DNA of 23,211 nucleotides from a virus. This document shows, one piece after another, positions 1,805 through 22,354 of the stretch. Location: positions 1 through 23,211 of IMG/VR virus record IMGVR_UViG_3300030677_000023; one strand, given 5' to 3'. Each line of letters begins with the position of its first letter. Position 1 is the first letter of the stretch. Under the pieces are notes generated by a model. That model searched no databases and was not told the DNA's origin. It was given only the letters and a program-made list of their open reading frames with translations. A program made the translations under genes and the position numbers.

Positions 1805-2622
1805 ATCAGAAAACCGCAACAGCGCCGAAGGGCGAAGTGGCCGAGAAGCCGAAGAGCACCAACGTGGCCGTGATCGACTACGGCGATGACGTCGGCGCCG
1901 GATTCGAGGGCGTCTCCCAGACCGATCTGGTCATCCCGTTCCTGGAAGTCCTGCAGCCGCAGTCCAAGAAACTGGACCTGAATCCCGCAGCGAAGGCCGG
2001 TGATATTCTCAATACGGTCACCAATGAGCCCTACTCCGGCACCGACGGCATCGCGCTGATCCCGTGCTTCTCCCAGCACATCTTCGTCGAGTGGAAGCCG
2101 CGCGACGACGGCGGTGGCTTCGTCGGCAAGCACGAACTGGACAGCGACGTGGTGAAAAAGGCGCAGGCCGCGAGCGAGAAGTTCGGCGAGTACAAGACCG
2201 AGGCTGGCAACGACCTGGTCGAGACCTACTACCTGTACGTCATCGTCCTCAAGGCCGACGGCACCACCGAGTACGCGGCCATCGCGTTCACCTCGATGAA
2301 GGTGAAGATATACAAGAACTTCATCACCAAGGCCAAAATGGTCCAGGTCGTGGTCGGCGACGGCCGCCGCATCAACCCGCCGCTGTTCAGCCACGTCTAC
2401 CGCCTGAAGACCATCAAGGAAGAGAAGGACGGCTTCAAGTATTTCAACTTCCAGCCGGTCGGCTTCAACGGCGCCGACGCCACCGCCGTCCGCCTGTCGC
2501 CCGACGACAGCCTCTACCAGGACGCCAAGGGCTTCAACCAGATGATCCGGCAGGGCGCGGTGAAGACGGCGGAAGCGACCAGCGAGCGCCCCGCGACGAA
2601 GGATGCAGAAGCGGTGTTCTAA
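1801..2622 (+). CDS. Putative phage ssDNA-binding or replication accessory protein (273 aa)
   Basis: The N-terminus (about 20 residues) is Lys/Ala/Glu-rich and probably disordered. It is followed by a block VIPFLEVLQP and a beta-rich, aromatic body with a VEWKPRDDGGGFVG segment. It ends in ...AEAVF: a terminal Phe after a mildly acidic disordered tail, as in phage T7 gp2.5 and bacterial SSB proteins, which use such tails to contact polymerase and helicase. It sits directly before the RecD-like helicase. The ssDNA-binding idea comes from tail and context only, as I do not see an OB-fold signature. Third-position G/C is very strong, so it is probably well expressed. It starts by ATGA overlap. 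Confidence 0.75.
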   Translation: MNQKTATAPKGEVAEKPKSTNVAVIDYGDDVGAGFEGVSQTDLVIPFLEVLQPQSKKLDLNPAAKAGDILNTVTNEPYSGTDGIALIPCFSQHIFVEWKPRDDGGGFVGKHELDSDVVKKAQAASEKFGEYKTEAGNDLVETYYLYVIVLKADGTTEYAAIAFTSMKVKIYKNFITKAKMVQVVVGDGRRINPPLFSHVYRLKTIKEEKDGFKYFNFQPVGFNGADATAVRLSPDDSLYQDAKGFNQMIRQGAVKTAEATSERPATKDAEAVF

Positions 2623-2667
2623 ACGATGCTGTGAAGACGATTTCCAAAATCGTCTTTACTGCATCGT
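2623..2667 (+). promoter_or_regulatory. Long near-perfect RNA hairpin (21 bp arms)
   Basis: Directly after the stop of the 273-aa gene, bases 2623-2643 pair with 2647-2667 around a 3-nt loop. All positions pair except one T-T mismatch (2630/2660) and one G-U (2633/2657). There is no T-tract after it. It lies between two operon genes that may need very different expression levels, so it could be a processing site (RNase III type), an mRNA-stabilising 3' end, or a barrier to exonucleases. Confidence 0.8.
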
Positions 2668-2681
2668 TTACGAACGCAGAT

Positions 2682-8075: not shown

Positions 8076-8471
8076 GTGTCCGAGAAGGCTATGTGGGAGA
8101 CGCTGCGACCGCACCTGGTCTCGCTCGATCCCCAGCGCGTCGAGAACTCCTGCACTCCGGGTTGCCCGGACACCGAGTTCATTGGCGGCTGGATGGAACT
8201 GAAAGAGATCGTCATGCCCAAGCGCAAGGCGCCGATCCTGAAGGTACCGAAGTACGTGCAGGAGCAGCGCGTCTGGGCGGTGCAGAGACATCGTCACGGC
8301 GGCAAGGTGTGGTTCCTGCTGAAGATCGGACACGTCTGGCTGTTGTTCAAGGGGGAGGTCGCTGCAACGGTGGTGGGCAGATGCTCGCTTGAGGAGACGA
8401 TTGCTGCGGCCCACAGGAAGTGGGAACGCAGCGTCAATGGAAAAGAACTACTAGAATGTCTACGCCCCTGA
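8076..8471 (+). CDS. VRR-NUC-like nuclease (131 aa)
   Basis: The N-terminal half contains GCPDTEFI...WMELKE (about residues 29-44), the G.PD...(12-15)...E.K signature of the VRR-NUC/Holliday-resolvase-like PD-(D/E)xK nucleases; D32, E42 and K44 would bind metal and catalyse phosphodiester cleavage. The C-terminal part has the conserved Q...W....HGGKVWFL block of the same fold. In phages such enzymes resolve branched DNA. GTG at 8076 lies 7 bases after the HU-like stop; no strong ribosome site is seen. It overlaps the next gene by 16 bases. Confidence 0.85.
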   Translation: MSEKAMWETLRPHLVSLDPQRVENSCTPGCPDTEFIGGWMELKEIVMPKRKAPILKVPKYVQEQRVWAVQRHRHGGKVWFLLKIGHVWLLFKGEVAATVVGRCSLEETIAAAHRKWERSVNGKELLECLRP

Positions 8472-14491: not shown

Positions 14492-15663
14492 AAATCCTCC
14501 TCTGCTGGGAGATGGGCGCCGGCTACGGCCACCTCGCGTCCCTGCGCATCGCCGCCAAGGAACTGGTCAAGCGCGGCCACGAGTGCCTGTTCGCCGTCGC
14601 CGATACGCACGCCGCGCGGCATATCCTGGAGCCGGACCTCGGCCGCGTGTTCCATGCGCCACAGCAGTCGCGACCGGGCCATCAACTGCCGATGCAGTTC
14701 AGCCACGCCACGATCCTGTACAACGCCGGCTTCAACAACCCGGAGGAGCTGTCTCGCCGCATCAAGCACTGGTCGACGATGATGCTCAACCACCACGTCG
14801 ACGCCGTGGTCGCGGACTACTCGCCGATCGCGCTGGTCGCTGCGCGCGCACTCGGCTTGCCGCGGACGGTGATCGGCTGCGGATTCGACGTGCCGCCGCT
14901 GGTCGAGCCGTTCCCTGCGTTCCCTGTCTTCGGGTCCACCATCCCGGAGACGACGCTGATCCACAACGAGGAGGCCGTCTGCACGCTCCTCAACGGCGCT
15001 CTGGTCGACCTTGGCTTCGAGCCGTACGAGAAGCTGCAGCACATCTACTCCGGGGCGAAGCGGGCGCTGCTGACGTACGCGGAGATGGATCACTATGAGG
15101 GTCGGCAGGGCGACGAGTATCTGGGGTTGCCGGACGACGATCTGGTGAGCGAGAAACCGTGGCCCAGTAAGCACGCCAAGCGTGTGTTCGCCTACCTGCG
15201 GCCGCACGCCCACCTGGACGAGATGCTGGCGGCGCTGCGCGACTGCGACGCCGACGTGCTGCTGGTCGCCGACCAGATCGAGGCCCACTACCTGACGCCG
15301 TACCTACGACCAGGGCTATTTATGGCCACGCGTCTGACCAACCTGCGGCACCGCGCCCAACAGTGCGACGCCTGGCTCTCCTACTCACCCCACGGCACCT
15401 CGACCGAGATGCTGCTGGCCGGCAAGCCTGGTGTGGTCTGGCCGGACACGCTGGAGCGCGAGCTGGTGGGGCGTAGGCTGGCGCAGAGCGGCGGGGTCGT
15501 GGTGATGGGCGACGCGGATACCGGAGTCGACTACGCTCTTTCGATGGCGCTGGAGGAGGATTCGCTGCGGGAGGGAGCGGACCGGTTCGCCCAGAAATAC
15601 GCGGCGCAGGATCGGTCGATGATTCCAGCGCGGCTTGCAGACATTATTCTTTCGCCCAGATAG
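14488..15663 (+). CDS. GT-B-fold glycosyltransferase, UGT/MGT-like (391 aa)
   Basis: The N-terminus MKILLCWEMGAGYGH (1-15) with H15 matches the start of GT1/MurG-type transferases, whose early His often acts as base. The C-terminal domain has LSYSPHGTSTEMLLAGKP (297-314), the family's donor-binding HG.GT..E.L..G.P segment, followed by a WP. It should transfer a sugar from a nucleotide donor to an acceptor. The acceptor is unknown: modified phage DNA base, host cell-surface glycan, or a protein. No DNA-base hydroxymethylase is in the window. Length is normal. It starts by ATGA overlap, and its stop codon TAG lies inside the following tRNA. Confidence 0.85.
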   Translation: MKILLCWEMGAGYGHLASLRIAAKELVKRGHECLFAVADTHAARHILEPDLGRVFHAPQQSRPGHQLPMQFSHATILYNAGFNNPEELSRRIKHWSTMMLNHHVDAVVADYSPIALVAARALGLPRTVIGCGFDVPPLVEPFPAFPVFGSTIPETTLIHNEEAVCTLLNGALVDLGFEPYEKLQHIYSGAKRALLTYAEMDHYEGRQGDEYLGLPDDDLVSEKPWPSKHAKRVFAYLRPHAHLDEMLAALRDCDADVLLVADQIEAHYLTPYLRPGLFMATRLTNLRHRAQQCDAWLSYSPHGTSTEMLLAGKPGVVWPDTLERELVGRRLAQSGGVVVMGDADTGVDYALSMALEEDSLREGADRFAQKYAAQDRSMIPARLADIILSPR

Positions 15664-15730
15664 CTCAGCGGCAGAGCGCGCGGCCTGATGAACCGCGAGG
15701 TCCCGAGTTCAATCCTCGGTCTGGGCGCCA
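15654..15730 (+). tRNA. tRNA with anticodon GAT (Ile by anticodon) and an enlarged anticodon arm
   Basis: Acceptor GCCCAGA (15654-15660) pairs with TCTGGGC (15720-15726), G is the discriminator, and CCA is encoded (15728-15730). D-arm GCTC/GAGC and T-arm CCGAG-TTCAATC-CTCGG (15703-15719) are regular. The anticodon stem CGCGG (15679-15683) pairs with CCGCG (15693-15697), leaving a 9-nt loop, or a sixth C-A mismatched pair closing the 7-nt loop CTGATGA. The anticodon is GAT at 15687-15689 by comparison with E. coli tRNA-Ile(GAT). G37 and G73 are atypical for Ile, so charging is uncertain. It overlaps the glycosyltransferase stop by 10 bases. Confidence 0.85.
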
Positions 15731-15731
15731 C

Positions 15732-15760
15732 TTGACATAGCGATGAACCTAATGTCAAAT
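15732..15760 (+). promoter_or_regulatory. Promoter-like region with TTGACAT/ATGTCAA inverted repeat
   Basis: TTGACA (15732-15737), 17 nt and TCAAAT (15755-15760) could form a promoter for the peptidyl-tRNA hydrolase gene. The same bases hold an inverted repeat, TTGACAT (15732-15738) and ATGTCAA (15752-15758), with centres two helical turns apart, and one ATTTGACA on the minus strand (15760-15753). It may be a repressible promoter. The -10 is only a fair match. Confidence 0.5.
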
Positions 15761-15797
15761 AGTCCCGTGCATTGACCGTCCCGCCTCCGGCGAACTA

Positions 15798-16145
15798 CTG
15801 ACCGCGATCCTCGTCCGAACGGACCTGGGGATGCTGCCCGGCAAGATCGCCGCGCAGGCATCGCATGCGGCATGCCAATCGTTGATGTACGCGCTGCGCC
15901 TGCAACCTGAACTCCTCGAATCCTTCCTGGCCGCCCAGAATAGCGGTACGCGGCTCGTGCTGCGTGCGCCGCGCCCGTGGCACCTCCATGACGCCTACGA
16001 CGCAGCCACGCGCCTGGCGTTGCCCTGCGCGCTGTTTCACGACAGTGGCCCAGGAATCCCCGAACCAATTCTCACGGCGTGCGCCATCGGGCCGGCGCCG
16101 CGGGACCTGATCAGCCCGATCATCAAGCGGTTCAACTGTGTATAG
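15798..16145 (+). CDS. Peptidyl-tRNA hydrolase type 2 (PTH2), start codon unusual (115 aa)
   Basis: The sequence ILVRTDLGMLPGKIAAQASHA right after the proposed start is the hallmark PTH2 opening (..VRTDL.M..GKIAAQ.SHA). The end TACAIGPAPRDLISPIIK matches its final strand and helix. PTH2 frees tRNA from stalled peptidyl-tRNA. The core strand begins upstream of the only in-frame ATG (15831), and no ATG, GTG or TTG exists upstream in this frame before a TAA at 15750. I place the start at CTG 15798, which gives the normal PTH2 length; ATT 15771 is possible. A +1 frameshift from the short ATG frame at 15743/15752 is another option. No ribosome site helps to decide. Confidence 0.82.
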   Translation: MTAILVRTDLGMLPGKIAAQASHAACQSLMYALRLQPELLESFLAAQNSGTRLVLRAPRPWHLHDAYDAATRLALPCALFHDSGPGIPEPILTACAIGPAPRDLISPIIKRFNCV

Positions 16146-16154
16146 GGTAAGACC

Positions 16155-16427
16155 ATGAATACCAACAACATTACCAACTACCTAGACTACATCGCCTGGC
16201 GCGCGATGTGGCGTTCAAAGCACGCGACGCTGGTCGCCGAGATCCGGGCGAAGAAGCACATCTCCCGATCACCGCAGCAGGAGCCCGTAACGCAGCAGAA
16301 TGATCGATCCTGGTCTCAGCACTTGCTGCACGGGCTGAAGGCCGAAGCCACGGCGATGTACGCCGAACGGGCCGAGTCCAAGGAGATCAGCCGGAATCTG
16401 CGGGCGCAGTGGCGGAAGGCAGCTTGA
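16155..16427 (+). CDS. Small basic helical protein, last gene of the rightward block (90 aa)
   Basis: AGGGTAAGACC precedes the ATG at 16155. The protein is mainly helical, with an aromatic N-terminal part (YLDYIAWRAMWRSKH) and a Lys/Arg/Ala-rich C-terminal part. No family was recognised. Its last 41 bases overlap, on the opposite strand, the end of the leftward zinc protein (16387-16563), so the two blocks collide here without an evident terminator. Confidence 0.65.
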   Translation: MNTNNITNYLDYIAWRAMWRSKHATLVAEIRAKKHISRSPQQEPVTQQNDRSWSQHLLHGLKAEATAMYAERAESKEISRNLRAQWRKAA

Positions 16428-16563
16428 GTTTCTGCTTCAGGCGCCATGCGCGTTGCCGAGTAGCTTTGCACGGTCGGCAGTAGCGATTTCCTGCAACGCG
16501 GGGCAAGCCCCCACAATCGCTGCATCCGTGGCTACGGCTGTACTGCTTTCCTCTGTTATTCAT
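16387..16563 (-). CDS. Small zinc-finger-like protein (58 aa)
   Basis: On the minus strand, ATG at 16563-16561 opens a 58-residue frame. It holds two knuckles, CSDCGG (from residue 14) and YCRPCK (from residue 28), plus an Arg/Lys-rich tail (TRQRAWRLKQKLKL). This is a typical small four-Cys zinc protein as found in phages, probably binding nucleic acid or RNA polymerase. The start codon directly abuts a perfect 14-bp hairpin, and a weak GAG ribosome site lies inside that stem, so translation is likely controlled by the structure. It is the last gene of the leftward block and overlaps the convergent rightward gene by 41 bases. Confidence 0.75.
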   Translation of the reverse strand: MNNRGKQYSRSHGCSDCGGLPRVAGNRYCRPCKATRQRAWRLKQKLKLPSATAPADSG

Positions 16564-16600
16564 CGTTACTCAATGTTCCATGCGGCAACATTGAGTAACG
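16564..16600 (-). promoter_or_regulatory. Perfect 14-bp hairpin immediately upstream of an ATG
   Basis: CGTTACTCAATGTT (16564-16577) and its exact reverse complement (16587-16600) flank a 9-nt loop. The stem ends at the base before the ATG of the 58-aa gene (16563). It lacks a T-run on either strand, so it is not a usual terminator. It probably acts as a translational switch, a protein operator (as for phage coat or RegA-like control) or an RNA-processing site. Confidence 0.8.
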
Positions 16601-16602
16601 TA

Positions 16603-16710
16603 TCACCGAATAATCGTCCCCGCCACCCTGCACGAGTGCACGCCCCACACCAGCAGCGCCGCCGCACCAGGCCACATCAGCACCGCCGGCAGCAGCCGCG
16701 CCAGGACCAT
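16603..16710 (-). CDS. Tiny single-helix membrane peptide (35 aa)
   Basis: ATG at 16710-16708 overlaps the KOW gene stop (TGATG). Residues about 5-25 (RLLPAVLMWPGAAALLVWGV) form one transmembrane helix followed by a short basic tail. No family can be assigned. Tight coupling and a clean membrane profile support it as real. Phage single-helix peptides often disturb host membrane or block host proteins, but that is inference only. Confidence 0.55.
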   Translation of the reverse strand: MVLARLLPAVLMWPGAAALLVWGVHSCRVAGTIIR

Positions 16711-16895
16711 CAGGCGGACTCGACCTCGCCGGGCCGGTACAGCACCACCAGCGACCGGAAGCGCACGGAGAGGCGCCCGTTGCGGTCGATCTTCTCGATG
16801 GTGCCCTGGCGGTCCTTCATGAGGCCCGCTTTGACCTTTACGGTATCGCCCTCGGCGTAGGAGGTAGTAGAGGAGCCAAAACGCTTCGCGCTCAT
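16710..16895 (-). CDS. KOW-domain protein (61 aa)
   Basis: Residues about 16-43 (GDTVKVKAGLMKDRQGTIEK) form a KOW motif, the RNA/protein-binding turn found in NusG, ribosomal L24 and some phage proteins. Here it stands nearly alone in a tiny protein. It might modify host RNA polymerase or bind RNA during transcription. The start ATG overlaps the previous stop (ATGA), and its stop overlaps the next ATG. Confidence 0.8.
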   Translation of the reverse strand: MSAKRFGSSTTSYAEGDTVKVKAGLMKDRQGTIEKIDRNGRLSVRFRSLVVLYRPGEVESA

Positions 16896-17164
16896 GATGC
16901 ACGGGCCACCTTCTGCTCGCGGCGCGCGGCCTTGAGGATGCGTTTCTGCTGCCGCGCCGAGATGTCGAGGTCGCGGCGCTGCTGGCGCAGGAAGTTGCCC
17001 TTGCCGGTGTGGATCGCCAGGACGGGATCGAGTGTGATCCTGCTACCGCGCATGCGGTGCGTGCGTTCCGGCGCTCCGCTGCGGGTCCGTTCAGCCATCG
17101 GCACTGCACCGATGCCGAGCATCATCGCTGCTACGAGTGCCGCACGGTTCTTGAGACTATTCAT
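16892..17164 (-). CDS. Basic protein with hydrophobic N-terminal segment (90 aa)
   Basis: ATG at 17164 is preceded by GGTGAGGAG and overlaps the previous gene by 8 bases; a longer start (17179) is not supported by a ribosome site. Residues about 8-25 (AALVAAMMLGIGAVPMA) look like a signal peptide or membrane anchor. The remainder is very Arg/Lys/Gln-rich, with a helical QQRRDLDIS...QQKRILKAARREQ end. The function is unknown; a secreted or membrane-tethered nucleic-acid-binding peptide is possible. Confidence 0.65.
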   Translation of the reverse strand: MNSLKNRAALVAAMMLGIGAVPMAERTRSGAPERTHRMRGSRITLDPVLAIHTGKGNFLRQQRRDLDISARQQKRILKAARREQKVARAS

Positions 17165-17390
17165 CGCCCGTCTCCTCACCTTCCGGCAGCTCGCCGGCCG
17201 TCTCGACCTTGGTCCCGGCCTGCAGCGCCGCGACGAGGTCTTCCTGGCTGGCGACCGAGGCGGTCAGCAGACCGCCGGCAACATGGCGCTTGGCGGCGGC
17301 GGGGGTGGAAGCTCGCACCAGGTGAGTTCCGGCGGGGACATCGACGGGGACGACGATGGCGTAGATTCGCTTGACGGCTGCATTGGACAC
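17157..17390 (-). CDS. Conserved small phage protein (77 aa)
   Basis: The GTG at 17390 has AGAAGGAACC upstream at the correct distance, so I chose it over the longer frame. The protein begins with strands (RIYAIVVPVDVPAGTHLVRA), then STPAAAKRHVA and a helix-turn ASQEDLVAALQAGTKVE. That layout is familiar to me from other phages, with no function known. Its codons are strongly G/C-ending. It overlaps the C-terminal part of the upstream gene by 127 bases, which is unusual here. Confidence 0.72.
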   Translation of the reverse strand: MSNAAVKRIYAIVVPVDVPAGTHLVRASTPAAAKRHVAGGLLTASVASQEDLVAALQAGTKVETAGELPEGEETGDE

Positions 17391-17650
17391 GGTATGGTTC
17401 CTTCTGTGGTTGAGGGTACAACGATAGCTTGTTCGATGGGCTTTAGGCCCGGGAAGAGAAGATAAAAGCGCCACTTGCTCGGCTCGCGCCGCAGGTTCCT
17501 GACGCGCCCACCATCGACGTACCGCAGGAAGTCCCCGCAGCACATCTCCTGCTCTTTGCAGTATTGGTAGGTGGGACAGTTGTCGCAGGGCGTGGGTTCG
17601 TCGGCCTTGAGGATATCGTGGCGTATTAGGTGATGGTTCGCGGTGCTCAT
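17264..17650 (-). CDS. Cysteine-rich protein with a Pro/Ser-rich C-terminal extension (128 aa)
   Basis: ATG at 17650 overlaps the previous stop (ATGA). Residues about 20-40 contain CDNCPTYQYCKEQEMCC, a Cys cluster fit for zinc or an iron-sulphur site, followed by a basic/aromatic stretch (LRREPSKWRFYLLFPG). From about residue 85 the chain is Ser/Pro-rich and lies in a shadow frame of the next gene, so the original protein probably ended earlier or has an over-printed tail. Confidence 0.65.
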   Translation of the reverse strand: MSTANHHLIRHDILKADEPTPCDNCPTYQYCKEQEMCCGDFLRYVDGGRVRNLRREPSKWRFYLLFPGLKPIEQAIVVPSTTEGTIPCPMQPSSESTPSSSPSMSPPELTWCELPPPPPPSAMLPAVC

Positions 17651-18141
17651 CGGGGTGCTCCAATCCAGACCTTGTCCTTCATGAGAGCCATCCGTTGGCG
17701 GAATTGACGCATCTCCGTATCCACTTCAAACCACTGAGAGCGGCCGTTCTTCATCTTGTTGGAGCCGACGTGCGCGATCGCGTGGATCTTGCCGTGCTGG
17801 TCGACTCGCACTCTGCCCAAACGCCGGGGCAGTTCCTCCCACGACTGCACGCCGATGGACTGGCATACCCGGAAGATCCAGAATCCCGTCAGATTGACCG
17901 CGCCCAGGTACTGCTGTTTGAGCTGGTTGCTGAAGAGGACGGGGGACTCCAGGATGTAGCGGATGTCGTCCCCGCCTTTCACCATGTCGGCCATGTGCAC
18001 GTAGGCGACGACCTGGCCAAACTTGGCCTCGATCGCCACGCTGCCAATATGCACCATGCGCTCCTCCAGCACCAGACGCTCGTCGACGAGCGGTGGAGCA
18101 TCGGGTGCTGGAGGGTCGGCTATGGTGCGGACGTCGCTCAT
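17647..18141 (-). CDS. Conserved phage protein, paralogue of the gene at 12752-13105 (164 aa)
   Basis: It starts at ATG 18141 by overlap with the HTH gene stop (ATGA). The N-terminal ~25 residues are Pro/Asp-rich and disordered. A central part with QVVAYVHMADMVKGGDD is followed by WIFRVCQSIGVQSWEELPRR, then RVRVDQHGKIHAIAH. The last two blocks align in order with the rightward 117-aa protein. It may be a small beta-domain protein. It follows the HTH regulator in its operon and may be expressed with it. Confidence 0.75.
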   Translation of the reverse strand: MSDVRTIADPPAPDAPPLVDERLVLEERMVHIGSVAIEAKFGQVVAYVHMADMVKGGDDIRYILESPVLFSNQLKQQYLGAVNLTGFWIFRVCQSIGVQSWEELPRRLGRVRVDQHGKIHAIAHVGSNKMKNGRSQWFEVDTEMRQFRQRMALMKDKVWIGAPR

Positions 18142-18398
18142 TCGGCGATGGGGACGTACCGCTTCAGCGCGCGACGCGCCGACGCTGCGATCTCGCTCGT
18201 CGACAGCATCACCCAGGCTGCGATGGCCGCCGGCCGCGGGATGTCCGTCGCCGCAGAATCGGTCTGCGGGTCGCCGAGCCAGCGGTGCACGGTTCTCACC
18301 GACACGCCCATCAGCTTGGCGAATGCCGCTACGGCGAGGTAGTACGGCAGCTCGGGGTGCGCGTCCTGGATCAGCTTTTTGAGCGACTCTCTGTTCAT
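18138..18398 (-). CDS. HTH transcription regulator, probably translated from a leaderless mRNA (86 aa)
   Basis: Residues about 19-42 (YYLAVAAFAKLMGVSVRTVHRWLG) form a helix-turn-helix of the Xre/Cro type. A linker and helical PRPAAIAAWVML part follow and may dimerise. A near-perfect promoter (TTGACA-17-TATACT, 18433-18405) ends only 6 bases before the ATG, so the predicted +1 is the A of the start codon. No ribosome site is present. Leaderless expression is known for lambda CI from PRM. The -35 overlaps an ATTTGACA motif, so autoregulation is likely. It ends by ATGA overlap. Confidence 0.82.
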   Translation of the reverse strand: MNRESLKKLIQDAHPELPYYLAVAAFAKLMGVSVRTVHRWLGDPQTDSAATDIPRPAAIAAWVMLSTSEIAASARRALKRYVPIAE

Positions 18399-18404
18399 GG
18401 TGGG

Positions 18405-18433
18405 AGTATAGGGTTGATGATCTGACGTGTCAA
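18405..18433 (-). promoter_or_regulatory. Near-consensus sigma70 promoter for the HTH regulator
   Basis: On the minus strand TTGACA (18433-18428), 17 nt and TATACT (18410-18405) are close to consensus. ATTTGACA (18435-18428) covers the -35, and the surrounding CTGAC...GTCAG (18422-18441) forms an inverted repeat, the expected shape for a repressor site. The first transcribed base should be 18398. Confidence 0.8.
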
Positions 18434-18437
18434 ATTG

Positions 18438-19010
18438 TCAGTCCGCACCGAACACCTGCTCCATCACCACCACGGATCGGGGACCAAAGAATGCCGCCTG
18501 CTCATCGGCACGCGCACCTTCTTCGGTTTCGGCCGGTTCGCCCAGGCTGACCGCAGGAAGGGATCGGACGGCAGCGTCACCTTCTGCTGGCCGATCGGTT
18601 TGATGCGACGCAGCACCATGTGGTTCTCGCCGAAGTAGTTGGGCCGGATCAGCAGCTCCTGGTTGTCGGGGTGCGTCCGGCGCCCCAGATGCAGGATGTA
18701 GCCCAGCACCTGAAATGCACTCTTGAAGCCGTGCCAAAACACTTTCGTCATATTCATCATCGGTGAGTTTCCTTTTCTGTTTGCAGTGGTACAGCGTGAG
18801 TACGTTCGTCTCTTTCAGCCAGCTTCGCAGCAGCGCCTCGATCAGCGCCGGCCGATGGCCGCTCAGCAGCTCGCCGACGTACGGCCCGCGCAGCTTCAGG
18901 TCGACCGCTCGCGCCAGGTCGCGCGGGATACGGACGTCCCAGCGGGTCAGCGGGACGTTCTTTGTGCGGTGCGCAATCCGCGGCAGACGGGGCAGCTTGC
19001 TGGTCTTCAA
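18438..19010 (-). CDS. Ribbon-type DNA-binding-like protein; long overlapping 3' tail (190 aa as open frame)
   Basis: It starts at TTG 19010, which overlaps the previous TGA (TTGA). The first ~70 residues hold a basic N-terminus, VRIPRDLARAVDLKL and ALIEALLRSWLKE, the kind of strand-helix-helix layout seen in CopG/Arc-like phage regulators. After about residue 85 the frame overlaps the 98-aa gene for some 300 bases. It uses poor codons and looks like shadow sequence (PASGAPDAPRQPG...), running into the next promoter. Probably the real protein is short and its stop was lost. The N-terminal part is well supported; the tail is not. Confidence 0.6.
   Translation of the reverse strand: MKTSKLPRLPRIAHRTKNVPLTRWDVRIPRDLARAVDLKLRGPYVGELLSGHRPALIEALLRSWLKETNVLTLYHCKQKRKLTDDEYDESVLARLQECISGAGLHPASGAPDAPRQPGAADPAQLLRREPHGAASHQTDRPAEGDAAVRSLPAVSLGEPAETEEGARADEQAAFFGPRSVVVMEQVFGAD
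18464..18760 (-). CDS. Basic phage protein of unknown function (98 aa)
   Basis: ATG at 18760 has AAAAGGAAA upstream. The frame is strongly G/C-ending from about codon 15 to its stop, unlike the overlapping longer frame. Residues about 12-25 (FKSAFQVLGYILHLG) are hydrophobic and helical. The rest is basic, with LLIRPNYFGENHMVLRRI and a Pro/Arg/Lys-rich end. No family was recognised. It lies just before the promoter of the HTH gene. Confidence 0.72.
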   Translation of the reverse strand: MMNMTKVFWHGFKSAFQVLGYILHLGRRTHPDNQELLIRPNYFGENHMVLRRIKPIGQQKVTLPSDPFLRSAWANRPKPKKVRVPMSRRHSLVPDPWW

Positions 19011-19138
19011 GGTGCGTGGCGCTCGCTGATCATCTGCTCTTTCAGGCTGTACGCCCAGACCGACAGCAGGATGCCGAGCAGGCCGATCCAGATGAGGGGT
19101 TCGAGGGCGAGGAGGAGCAGGCGGCTACGCAGTTTCAA
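19007..19138 (-). CDS. Tiny single-helix membrane protein (43 aa)
   Basis: TTG at 19138 overlaps the end of the upstream gene, and the TGA at 19009-19007 overlaps the next TTG. The sequence has a basic start (LKLRSR), one clear transmembrane helix (about 7-30, with IWIGLLGILLSVWAY), and a charged tail. No homology is recognisable. It is supported by couplings on both sides and by the clean N-in membrane profile. Confidence 0.55.
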   Translation of the reverse strand: MKLRSRLLLLALEPLIWIGLLGILLSVWAYSLKEQMISERHAP

Positions 19139-19463
19139 GCGGCTTTCTCCTGGCCCAGTACGGCACCTCCTGCTTCGGGTACTCGGACTCGAATCCGGCC
19201 TCGCGCAGCAGAGCGAGCGTCAGCTCCCCGGCCTTAGTCAACTCCCAGTGCCCACGCTGTTTAGACACGTCGTGCAGCACCCACACGACCATCCCCTTCT
19301 CGCACAACTGACGGCCAGCACCAACATAGTGCGGAAACCGGGGACCGTCGTCGTATACCGTGCAGTGGCCGGCGTCGATGATCTGCAACATGATGATCTG
19401 CCGCTTGCTGATCGACAGAAAGAACGCGGTATTGGTGACGTGGTCACGGAAGATCGTGTTCAT
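19125..19463 (-). CDS. Winged-helix-like phage protein (112 aa)
   Basis: It starts at ATG 19463 by ATGA overlap; a longer frame to 19586 would lie inside the upstream gene. The order SISKRQIIMLQIIDAG, then GRQLCEKGMVVWVLHD, then HWELTKAGELTLALLREAG resembles a winged-helix domain of phage DNA-binding proteins (helix, helix-turn, wing TKAG). It might be a repressor or accessory factor. No catalytic residues are seen. Confidence 0.7.
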   Translation of the reverse strand: MNTIFRDHVTNTAFFLSISKRQIIMLQIIDAGHCTVYDDGPRFPHYVGAGRQLCEKGMVVWVLHDVSKQRGHWELTKAGELTLALLREAGFESEYPKQEVPYWARRKPLETA

Positions 19464-19669
19464 TCCATGCGCTCCCAGTCGAACAACTGCCGCGTCATGT
19501 CGCTCAGTTTCACCGCTAGGCCGTGGTCGATCACCTCGACGTAACGGCCATCGACGACGCGCAGGTTCTTCATGCGGCAGGGGCACAGCGGCTTACCCGC
19601 CTGGGGGCCGATGCAGTTGCAGGCGTGGGAACCGCTAGGACTGGTCTTTAATTCGTACGCTTTGTTCAT
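19460..19669 (-). CDS. Small cysteine-containing protein (69 aa)
   Basis: ATG at 19669 lies a few bases after the previous tiny gene. Four Cys in ACNCIGPQAGKPLCPCRM (about residues 16-33) form two CxC pairs, fit for a zinc knuckle. The C-terminal part is beta-like and then helical (LSDMTRQLFDWERME). No known family. It ends by ATGA overlap with the winged-helix-like gene. Confidence 0.68.
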   Translation of the reverse strand: MNKAYELKTSPSGSHACNCIGPQAGKPLCPCRMKNLRVVDGRYVEVIDHGLAVKLSDMTRQLFDWERME

Positions 19670-19678
19670 GGTGTCATC

Positions 19679-19762
19679 CTACCAGTGTTTATTGATCCAC
19701 AGAACCAGCAAGAGGGTGAGTCCGACGCCCTCCGCGACGAAGTGCACATAGACATGAATCAT
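19679..19762 (-). CDS. Tiny membrane peptide (27 aa)
   Basis: ATG at 19762 overlaps the previous stop (ATGA) and TAG ends it at 19679. Residues about 8-22 (FVAEGVGLTLLLVLW) suit a short membrane helix, flanked by His and Lys. It is too short to be sure. The exact coupling and its membrane character, like those of two other peptides in this block, support it. Confidence 0.42.
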   Translation of the reverse strand: MIHVYVHFVAEGVGLTLLLVLWINKHW

Positions 19763-19920
19763 GGCAGTTCGTCCTCGAAAACCTCATCGACCAGAAGTAC
19801 CTCCGCGCAGTCCCTTCGCCGCTCGATCTTCTGTCGCGCGTCCTCGGCGCTCACGGCCTGGATGCGCACGCAGTCGGTAGCGTTCTCGTCGTCGGCCCAG
19901 ATGACGTCGTAGGTGGTCAT
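19759..19920 (-). CDS. Small acidic protein (53 aa)
   Basis: ATG at 19920 overlaps the upstream stop (ATGA), and its TGA overlaps the next ATG. The protein is acidic (many Asp/Glu), with MTTYDVIWADDEN at the start, a helix (SAEDARQKIERR), and an acidic end VFEDELP. It may be a DNA mimic or a host-protein inhibitor, as acidic phage peptides sometimes are, but nothing proves it. Codons are G/C-ending. Confidence 0.62.
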   Translation of the reverse strand: MTTYDVIWADDENATDCVRIQAVSAEDARQKIERRRDCAEVLLVDEVFEDELP

Positions 19921-20120
19921 GCCACGTCATCCCGGCAGCGCACATGGTAGATAGGCCGTCTGTCCCATCGGGCAAACCCGTGTCCGAGCTGCCAGAGCGC
20001 TAGGCGCACATGCTCGCTCATCAGCGCGGTGCGCATCTCGAACAGCGATAGCGCCGCGCGGTCGGCAGCGCCCGACATCGCCTGGAACGCCTTGAGTGCT
20101 TCCTGCTGCGTCTTGTTCAT
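19917..20120 (-). CDS. Small helical protein (67 aa)
   Basis: ATG at 20120 overlaps the stop of the upstream gene (ATGA). The first ~45 residues are an amphipathic, Ala-rich helical pair (TQQEALKAFQAMSG, then LFEMRTALMSEHVRLALW). The end is Arg/His-rich (HVRCRDD). No family was recognised; it is part of the leftward coupled run. Confidence 0.62.
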   Translation of the reverse strand: MNKTQQEALKAFQAMSGAADRAALSLFEMRTALMSEHVRLALWQLGHGFARWDRRPIYHVRCRDDVA

Positions 20121-20389
20121 CCCGGCGTCCTCAACAGATGCGCCACCATCGACTGGTTGTGCTCGTCCGTCAGCTGGTCGATCAGCCTCCGAAGCAGTCG
20201 CGGCGTCAGCTCGGCCGGCTCGAAGCCCTCGCAGGCTGCGACGCAGGCTTGGATGTAGGTGAGGACGACTGGGTCGTTCATGTAGACGCGCTTGCCGTCG
20301 GCGTTGTAGAGGAACCAGCCGGGGACGGCGCTGGTGGACTCCGTGTCGCAGCGGACAGACCAGGGGCGTTTAGGGAGATTGGTGTTCAT
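20117..20389 (-). CDS. Small protein of unknown function (90 aa)
   Basis: ATG at 20389 overlaps the upstream stop. It has a beta-like N-terminal half (RPWSVRCDT, GWFLYNADGKRVYM, suggesting a small sheet) and a helical C-terminal half (LTPRLLRRLIDQLTDEHN). No Cys cluster, membrane segment or catalytic site is seen. Codon use agrees with its neighbours. Confidence 0.68.
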   Translation of the reverse strand: MNTNLPKRPWSVRCDTESTSAVPGWFLYNADGKRVYMNDPVVLTYIQACVAACEGFEPAELTPRLLRRLIDQLTDEHNQSMVAHLLRTPG

Positions 20390-20601
20390 CCGCGCACCGC
20401 CAGAAAATGAAGTATTTCCTTGCTGTCACAGGTATTGCACTGATCGCTCAGCCGCAATTCGCCGCCGTCATAGAACGTCAGCACTCTGCCACCTGGATCA
20501 ACACGCTCGCGCTTCAGGCCCGCTTCATGCACGGCCTTCCTCACAGAAGCGGTGTCTGCATTGCGGTCACCAGAACAGATTGGGCACTTGTCCACGCTCA
20601 T
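20386..20601 (-). CDS. Zinc-knuckle protein (71 aa)
   Basis: ATG at 20601 overlaps the upstream stop (ATGA). CPICSG near the N-terminus and CNTCDS near the C-terminus make two CxxC knuckles enclosing a basic helical/beta segment, the arrangement of a small zinc ribbon. It is likely a nucleic-acid- or protein-binding accessory protein. It ends by ATGA overlap. Confidence 0.72.
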   Translation of the reverse strand: MSVDKCPICSGDRNADTASVRKAVHEAGLKRERVDPGGRVLTFYDGGELRLSDQCNTCDSKEILHFLAVRG

Positions 20602-20807
20602 TCCCGATTCACCGGATACACGGTCCCGTCATCGCACTGCGCGATCTCGCCGCGTTCGTCGTAGCTGATGCTGCAGTTGATGTGCAGGTTGTTCGATGCG
20701 TGGACGCGGGACTGGATTGGCGGTACGTGCACACCGACCAGGTAGAACATGGCAATCATCGCCAGGACGACGGCGAGGAACCACAGATCATGCTTGATAT
20801 TTTCCAT
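20598..20807 (-). CDS. Single-pass membrane protein with periplasmic-type C-terminus (69 aa)
   Basis: The ATG at 20807 has GAAAGGGAG six bases upstream, so it is preferred over the GTG at 20846, which overlaps the ATPase gene. Residues about 8-25 (LWFLAVVLAMIAMFYLVGV) are one transmembrane helix. The ~40-residue C-terminal part has two Cys (INCSIS, AQCDDG) that could form a disulphide outside the cytoplasm. The function is unknown. Confidence 0.72.
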   Translation of the reverse strand: MENIKHDLWFLAVVLAMIAMFYLVGVHVPPIQSRVHASNNLHINCSISYDERGEIAQCDDGTVYPVNRE

Positions 20808-20833
20808 GCGCATCTCCCTTTCCACCCGGTCTC

Positions 20834-21958
20834 TCAGATTTTCCACTTGACCGCGTCCTCGATCAGCCTGCGAAAGGCGATGATGCCGTCGCGCCGCATA
20901 TGCTTGCGGTTCAGCTTGAGCCAGTCAGCGAGGATCTCGTAGGGGGACTTCAGCTTGATGGTGACCTCCGTCTTGTAGGAGTTCGACTCCTTCACGGCGC
21001 CGTACATGGCGCCGCCAACGTAGACCACCTCCGTCATGCCCTGCTTGACGTAGCGCTCAACCTCCTCCGGGCTGTTGGCGATGATCTTGCCTGGATGGCG
21101 CTTGCGGAAGATGCTGTAGCACACCTCCTTGACCAGCTCCGGGCAGTTGTAGTTGCCGTACTCCAGGTCGGGCACGTTGTCGGCGATCATCTGGCCCACC
21201 GCCTCGTGGCGGCCGGACTCGAACCAGAACTCCTTGGTTATGAACGCCAGGTCGAAGGTCGATACCGTCTGCCTATCGCGCTCAAGCCGAAGGTGCTCCG
21301 GCTTCACGTCGTAGCCGTAGCGCATCTTCGTGTCGCACACGAACAGACCGCCGACGTACAGCTTGCCCGGCTTGCCTAGAAGGATGCGGCCCTTCGTTGT
21401 CGTGATGGTCTCGCCCAACTCCGGCTGCATCGGCAGGCAGGTCGATATGATCTGCGCGCAGTCGTCCGGCGACAGGCCGCTGACGCGAAATGTCAGACCC
21501 TCGTTGGGCTGCGGCGACGGATGGTCGCTGATGCACAGCACCTCGGCGCCGAACTGCCTGCTTTCCCGAAAATGCGGGGTCCAGATACGCTCGCCGTTGT
21601 AGACGGTGACGTCGTAGCCCTGGCGCGCGAGAACCAGCAGCGCGATCTTGTAGCCTTCGCCGAAGCTGCCGATCGTGTCGGTGCGCTCGGCCTTGGTCGT
21701 CGCGCCCAGGAGCAGGGATGAGGGGTCGAGTGTGGTGTAGCGGCTGCGGATCAGCAGGTCGCTGCCGGCCGCGTCATCCCGGTCAATCCACTCATACTCG
21801 AACGGCGACTCCGAGTCGAGCGCGTTCTGGAGCAGCTCACGGACGGCCTCGGCCATGCCCCAATGGCGCACGTAGCCCTTGGCCAGCGGCAGCTCGTAGG
21901 TCTTGCTGAAGCCGAGAACGTTGGAGACGGCTTTGAGGGTCTGGGTGGCTTGGGTCAC
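20834..21958 (-). CDS. GHKL-superfamily ATPase (374 aa)
   Basis: The N-terminal ~200 residues look like the Hsp90/MutL/MORC-type ATP-binding fold. The N-box is AVRELLQNALDSE (E41, N45), then comes LLLGATTKAE, and the glycine-rich lid is TIGSFGEGYK (95-104). The usual DxGxG box is not obvious, and a TTLDPSSLLLG segment occupies that place. The C-terminal ~170 residues are unassigned, with a basic end (LKLNRKHMRRDG). ATP-driven conformational change is the family mechanism. T4 RIIA is another phage protein with such a fold. It is the largest gene of the leftward block. It starts with GTG 21958 (GTGA). Confidence 0.82.
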   Translation of the reverse strand: MTQATQTLKAVSNVLGFSKTYELPLAKGYVRHWGMAEAVRELLQNALDSESPFEYEWIDRDDAAGSDLLIRSRYTTLDPSSLLLGATTKAERTDTIGSFGEGYKIALLVLARQGYDVTVYNGERIWTPHFRESRQFGAEVLCISDHPSPQPNEGLTFRVSGLSPDDCAQIISTCLPMQPELGETITTTKGRILLGKPGKLYVGGLFVCDTKMRYGYDVKPEHLRLERDRQTVSTFDLAFITKEFWFESGRHEAVGQMIADNVPDLEYGNYNCPELVKEVCYSIFRKRHPGKIIANSPEEVERYVKQGMTEVVYVGGAMYGAVKESNSYKTEVTIKLKSPYEILADWLKLNRKHMRRDGIIAFRRLIEDAVKWKI

Positions 21959-22152
21959 GACGACACCCCCTCCAGCCTCTCGCGCCTGGCGGCCAGCTCC
22001 CAGCCGACGCGCTCCATCGCCAGATCGAGCGCTGCAGCTGTCTTGAACAGGCCCATATCAACGGCCTCCTGCTTCATCCGGACCAGGCGCACGGGTATGT
22101 CGCAGGCGTATATCGTGTTCAGGGTTTTGTGGTGGGTCTTCGTATGGATCAT
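21955..22152 (-). CDS. Conserved small phage protein (65 aa)
   Basis: ATG at 22152 lies just after the previous stop with a weak TAGGA site; an earlier in-frame ATG (22236) falls inside the upstream gene. The protein has IYACDIPVRLVRMKQEAV then FKTAAALDLAMERVGWELAARR, a helical layout known to me from other phages, with no established role. It ends by GTGA overlap with the ATPase. Confidence 0.75.
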   Translation of the reverse strand: MIHTKTHHKTLNTIYACDIPVRLVRMKQEAVDMGLFKTAAALDLAMERVGWELAARRERLEGVSS

Positions 22153-22156
22153 CGTC

Positions 22157-22354
22157 CTACACCCCTGTATCCAGCCGCTGCGCCAGGTCGCGGATCTCGA
22201 CGTGCGACAGCGGCAGGCAGTGCCCGTTCTGCCCAAGGATGTCCCGCACGCTGACGACGATCTGCGGGTTCGCCTGCATCTGCGCGCTCAGCACGACCAG
22301 GCCGGCGATCACTGCGCCCAGTTCGGGCTCGTTGAGGTTGATTCGGTTCTGCAT
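22157..22354 (-). CDS. First gene of the long leftward operon (65 aa)
   Basis: ATG at 22354 was chosen because in-frame starts further upstream lie at the -10 of the promoter. GAAGGGA lies about 12 bases before it. The protein begins MQNRINLNEPEL, followed by AVIAGLVVLSAQMQ (helical), and ends in PLSHVEIRDLAQRLDTGV. It is soluble or weakly membrane-associated. No family was recognised. The operon promoter precedes it directly. Confidence 0.7.
   Translation of the reverse strand: MQNRINLNEPELGAVIAGLVVLSAQMQANPQIVVSVRDILGQNGHCLPLSHVEIRDLAQRLDTGV

Follow-up and report, generated by a model that had tools for sequence, protein, structure and literature searches.

A perfect 14-bp stem closed by a 9-nt loop lies directly against the ATG of a 58-aa ORF that carries a CxxC...CxxC zinc motif (the zinc ORF), in a 23,211-nt stretch of phage DNA (the window) that was analyzed as a whole. 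The leading reading, which is held tentatively, is that this intercistronic stem would couple the zinc ORF to the ORF that precedes it, such that translation of the former depends on that of the latter. The stem also forms part of a set of perfect hairpins that are markedly overrepresented in the intergenic DNA of this phage. This excess is the most interesting new fact to emerge here, whereas the zinc-gene stem itself is of a known kind.

Stem-loop and gene order at a convergent junction

All elements of the stem-loop are read on the minus strand. The 5' arm (16600-16587, CGTTACTCAATGTT) is followed by the 9-nt loop (16586-16578, GCCGCATGG) and by the 3' arm (16577-16564, AACATTGAGTAACG), and zero bases separate the 3' arm from the ATG of the zinc ORF (16563-16561). 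The only GAG ribosome-site candidate before this ATG is contained in the 3' arm (16571-16569), 5 nt ahead of the ATG, and a weaker GGA is found at 16579-16577, 13 nt from it. The loop has an ATG of its own (16581-16579), which opens a three-codon frame, ATG-GAA-CAT-TGA, in the same frame as the zinc ORF and without a Shine-Dalgarno site. The perfect hairpin at the start of the ORF, the location of its GAG and the lack of a T-run had all been reported in a preliminary description of this DNA, and each of these observations was borne out. A T-run is missing after the stem on both strands, and an intrinsic terminator was rejected for want of a U-tract.

A stem of 14 bp is unlikely to have arisen by chance, because, when the window was shuffled 300 times with dinucleotides preserved, a perfect arm of at least 14 nt with a loop of 3-20 nt appeared in just one shuffle. 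The RNA fold had a z of -3.2 over an 87-nt stretch, and the corresponding values for 56-nt stretches were -5.1 on the minus strand and -6.2 on the plus strand.

The zinc ORF (16387..16563, minus strand) has an open frame and is the last ORF of the minus-strand block. It is preceded on the same strand by a hydrophobic ORF of 35 aa (16603..16710), likely with one membrane span (hydropathy of 1.84 over 19 residues), and this in turn by a 61-aa KOW-motif protein (16710..16895, minus strand; Pfam KOW, E 4.5e-7), such that the ATG of the 35-aa ORF overlaps the KOW stop as TGATG. The 35-aa ORF was absent from the ORF list that was available for the preliminary description, in which this upstream context was not seen. 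The 37-nt stem-loop (16564-16600) occupies the entire 39-nt gap between the stop of the 35-aa ORF and the zinc ATG, beginning 2 nt past the stop. The minus-strand block is compact, with many start/stop overlaps of 1-8 nt, and compact blocks with such overlaps are the usual setting for translational coupling.

The plus-strand block ends with a 90-aa ORF (16155..16427), and the zinc ORF overlaps its 3' end by 41 nt. Since the tails of the two ORFs overlap, the junction is convergent. In the same region (window 15654-16145), a tRNA-Ile gene (anticodon gat) precedes one that encodes a peptidyl-tRNA hydrolase of the PTH2 type (Pfam E 2.6e-13), a combination that is unusual in a phage.

From position 8390 to its end, the window differs from the record IMGVR_UViG_3300029951_000020 (77,431 bases; the 77-kb contig) at a single position, 14841, in 14,822 bases. 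The DNA polymerase shares ∼51% identity with its counterparts in Pseudomonas phage PaMx11 and Bordetella phage CN2, and the RIIA-like protein is 49-54% identical to the versions of PaMx11 and Epa5 (54% for Epa5). All three of these phages are filed under Mesyanzhinovviridae and, on the basis of the replication genes and the RIIA-like protein, we take the window phage to be Mesyanzhinovviridae-like. The annotated genes of PaMx11 and CN2 all lie on one strand (in stretches of 29.9 and 30 kb, respectively), whereas in the window phage the RIIA-like gene and the genes around it (16387-22354) are oriented opposite to the polymerase genes; the Epa5 stretch contains two annotated features, too few to judge its strand layout. 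The early module of the window phage may be inverted.

The zinc ORF as a probable gene and its relatives

The 58-aa ORF is probably a real small gene. Its codon score of -9.8, in a crude model trained on the same phage, hinted at a spurious frame, and the crude gene caller missed the ORF. In viral_contigs, 17 stretches fitted the DNA pattern for CxxCGxxPxxxGxxYCxxC, and all but one (16) were non-self. Within the 28-residue core, the 20 positions free of the pattern gave the window protein 18.7 bits on a profile of the 16 non-self stretches; random fill-ins scored -8.8 (sd 5.3) on the same profile, and none of 20,000 reached 18.7 bits. Two viral records match the zinc protein with E values of 8e-10 and 9e-8 per record, which are not independent of the motif, as both records were found through it. 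The spurious-frame explanation was rejected on account of the non-motif residues and these two homologs, and the ORF is taken as a gene because, beyond the search motif, its residues agree with those of 16 distant viral homologs. From the motif, we infer that the protein binds zinc.

Closer relatives were sought in several collections. A tblastn search of phages with the zinc protein returned 15 records (best E 0.5), none of which was counted as a relative, and in genome_contigs 370 stretches fitted the peptide pattern, with none confirmed. The alignment search with the RIIA-like protein yielded 76 loci. No match to the zinc protein at E up to 1 was obtained in 34 family-related records searched whole (32 picked from these loci, plus PaMx11 and CN2), and none at E up to 0.001 within the loci (all but the self locus, L036) or the three 30-kb stretches of named phages. 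PaMx11 and CN2 thus differ from the window phage in that no zinc relative was found in either.

The surroundings of the ORF were examined in the same manner. DNA relatives of 16000-17200 were not found in phages, and the KOW protein, the 90-aa minus-strand neighbour and the 90-aa plus-strand neighbour, used as baits in viral_contigs, recovered the same phage only. The inverted repeat itself occurs at one other place in viral_contigs, where it is identical and belongs to the same phage, and in none of the stretches of genome_contigs. Among the 76 RIIA-like loci, L035 also belongs to this phage (identity of 100% over 5,627 bases) and stops short of the stem. Inspection by eye of 11 of the 16 distant zinc relatives revealed no perfect stem of at least 10 bp upstream of their starts; the other five were skipped owing to long frames or the lack of a near start. 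This result counts against coupling, though a fair comparison would need relatives less distant than these.

Coupling, transcript ending and other readings of the stem

In the free RNA, the GAG is paired with a probability of ∼1 in the in silico fold. The folded stem, which pairs the GAG and abuts the ATG, would therefore block free ribosomes from starting at the zinc ORF. A ribosome that has translated the 35-aa ORF should open the helix, because the stem begins 2 nt past the stop of that ORF. This stop, of a candidate coding ORF on the same strand, is within ribosome reach. A terminating ribosome should cover ∼10-13 nt downstream and would thereby occupy part of the 5' arm, opening the helix. 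The zinc ORF would then be started either by the terminating ribosome or by the next one, and the predicted outcome is that little zinc protein is made, in step with translation at the end of the operon. A mechanism of this sort corresponds to the RNA-unfolding form of translational coupling.

When the ribosome-covered bases were held open in the fold (downstream edge at 16593-16590), two of the three GAG bases became 75-81% unpaired and the first 22-24%. In the same constrained folds the zinc ATG was partly re-paired, being 12-30% unpaired. Counting against coupling, the 35-aa ORF is barely over the coding cut-off (a score of 3.5, close to the cut-off of 3 in the crude gene caller), and the codon score of the zinc ORF is negative. 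Moreover, a review cites a library in which structure right after the stop reduced coupling (PMC12548453).

The same review describes known systems with which the stem may be compared. In the VII-IX coupling of phage f1 (Blumer et al., in PMC12548453), a long hairpin stops immediately ahead of the downstream gene. f1 shares with the window phage an arrangement of small consecutive phage genes, in which the hairpin would block the downstream start unless upstream ribosomes disturb it. In f1, however, the hairpin is part of the upstream gene, which has a 4-nt overlap with the next one, whereas in the window a 39-nt gap is filled by a hairpin that starts 2 nt past the stop; coupling has been demonstrated in f1, whereas in the window phage we only infer it. 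Likewise, E. coli rpmI-rplT and the coat-lysis pair of phage MS2 have structure at the downstream ribosome site, the formation of which upstream ribosomes are held to prevent (PMC12548453). The spacing given there for rpmI-rplT is +52 nt, close to that of 39 nt in the window, and the genes differ.

The convergent position of the stem brings in a second reading, in which its nearness to the zinc ATG is incidental. The stem would then be a terminator lacking a U-tract (dependent on Rho or another factor), possibly bidirectional, or else a stem of the 3'-end-protecting or RNase III-type processing kind, placed where the two blocks converge. We consider such a transcript-end role possible and almost as likely as coupling, and both could hold together. 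Consistent with it, a 45-nt scan of 16100-16774 gave no plus-strand fold as strong as the stem. The stem also belongs to a set of 13 perfect intergenic hairpins, and several members of that set either include a stop codon or lie shortly after one. On the minus strand, however, a stop at the stem would cut off the zinc gene, which looks real, and the absence of a T-run on either strand speaks against a terminator in both directions. In addition, a study of terminators reports that ribosomes at a stop codon prevent the folding of hairpins a few bases downstream and thereby suppress the terminator (PMC4824070), such that a ribosome at the stop 2 nt upstream should block folding of the hairpin. 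On the plus strand, nothing prevents the stem from acting as a stop signal, though the U-tract is absent. The bidirectional intrinsic terminators between convergent genes described in that study (PMC4824070) have in common with the stem a strong hairpin at a convergent junction; unlike them, the window stem has no A-tract or U-tract on either side.

In the preliminary description, the placement of the stem had been taken as that expected of a translational operator or an RNA thermometer-like switch. The occlusion of the ribosome site on which this rested is upheld by the fold, with a probability of ∼0 for an unpaired GAG, and translational control remains the leading reading, as a stem opened by a ribosome and not as a proven protein operator. 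The thermometer, in contrast, was rejected. The stem does cover the ribosome site, but its helix is perfect and stays closed to 80 °C in the model, the mean probability of an unpaired GAG being 0.000 up to 50 °C and 0.014 at 80 °C. No Rfam family reached its gathering score in the window except tRNA-Ile, and a thermometer is scarcely credible.

Two further readings treat the inverted repeat as a site in DNA. As an operator, it might be bound by a protein dimer, conceivably of the zinc protein, that controls a promoter before the zinc ORF. The dyad is perfect, with a 9-bp spacer. Elsewhere in the same phage, a divergent gap contains a 10-bp inverted repeat 4 nt ahead of the start codon of a ribbon-helix-helix gene, a typical operator position. 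Nevertheless, no sigma-70-like promoter was found near the stem in a search limited to that promoter type, and the window and the 77-kb contig hold a single full copy of the repeat. An operator is unlikely. A repeated binding site was rejected, as the window and the 77-kb contig contain no second full copy, and one half-arm match with 2 mismatches was at control level.

The repeat might alternatively serve a recombinase or another DNA transaction, with two arms around a short asymmetric spacer. Tyrosine-recombinase sites have 13-bp arms and an 8-bp spacer, to which the arm and spacer sizes here come near. The spacer, however, is 9 bp, the repeat fits exactly between the stop and the ATG, and no second full copy was found in the window, the 77-kb contig or genome_contigs; this role is highly improbable.

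Perfect intergenic hairpins across the phage

In total, 14 perfect hairpins (arms of at least 10 nt, loops of 3-20 nt) were detected in 75.4 kb of the phage, made up of four pieces (the window and three pieces of the 77-kb contig), and 13 of them, including the zinc stem, were intergenic. The gene calls, to which the zinc ORF and the longer PTH2 frame were added by hand, place 18.9% of the 75.4 kb in intergenic DNA, for a binomial chance of ∼4e-9 of finding 13 of 14 there; the calls are crude, and part of this 'intergenic' DNA may be coding. Shuffled intergenic stretches contained a mean of 0.17 hairpins and a maximum of 1 in 200 trials, versus the 13 observed. Among 72 related loci, many of them redundant (five loci shorter than 9 kb and the two of the same phage were dropped), hairpins of this kind numbered 107, of which 67 were intergenic. 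The trend is thus wider than the window phage but weaker in the related loci.

Several of the hairpins hold a stop codon or begin no more than 21 nt after one (window 2620-2670; L034 8727, 11418 and 16482), and in these cases, as judged by eye, a Shine-Dalgarno-like site is free further on. T-rich tails were observed on three hairpins (L033 5422, L034 11418 and L034 16482), and most have none. Terminator-like sites of the ordinary type are fewer than in shuffles (5 vs 11.7), a deficit that favours the transcript-end reading. Counting against coupling as an explanation of the class, other hairpins of the phage leave the ribosome site of the next gene free, and the class as a whole is therefore not explained by it. 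The existence of other perfect intergenic hairpins in the same phage similarly weakens any reading specific to the zinc gene.

Several individual hairpins and repeats of the phage stood out. The window hairpin at 2620-2670 is a 24-nt inverted repeat, 92% paired, with a loop of 3 nt and no T-run after it, and its 5' end holds the TAA stop of the gene at 1801-2622. In the structural-gene half of the phage, a perfect stem of 19 bp, closed by a 4-nt loop (L034 16482-16523; G001, same phage), begins 4 nt past a stop and has the T-rich tail CGCTTTTA. Two adjacent perfect hairpins share one gap at L032 13423-13480 (G001, same phage), and a near-copy of the first (AGGTGAATTAGATTCA) is located just upstream in the same gap. 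At L032 2720-2750 (G001, same phage), within a divergent gap, a 10-bp inverted repeat with a loop of 11 nt precedes by 4 nt the start codon for a 68-aa protein of the ribbon-helix-helix type (Pfam RHH_1, E 6.4e-7); this repeat looks like an autoregulatory operator.

A broader proposal would treat the intergenic hairpins, at least 13 in number and mostly without a U-tract, as a general post-transcriptional layer. The zinc stem would then have a dual role, stopping plus-strand antisense transcription and gating the last minus-strand gene by the passage of ribosomes, perhaps via the ATG-GAA-CAT-TGA frame of the loop. We regard this combined scheme as quite improbable. If the coupling reading of the stem is true, it would offer a clear example from nature in which access to a start site is controlled by a ribosome that ends 2 nt before a perfect stem. 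The hairpin set, for its part, might explain how transcripts are ended or processed in a phage with few ordinary terminators.
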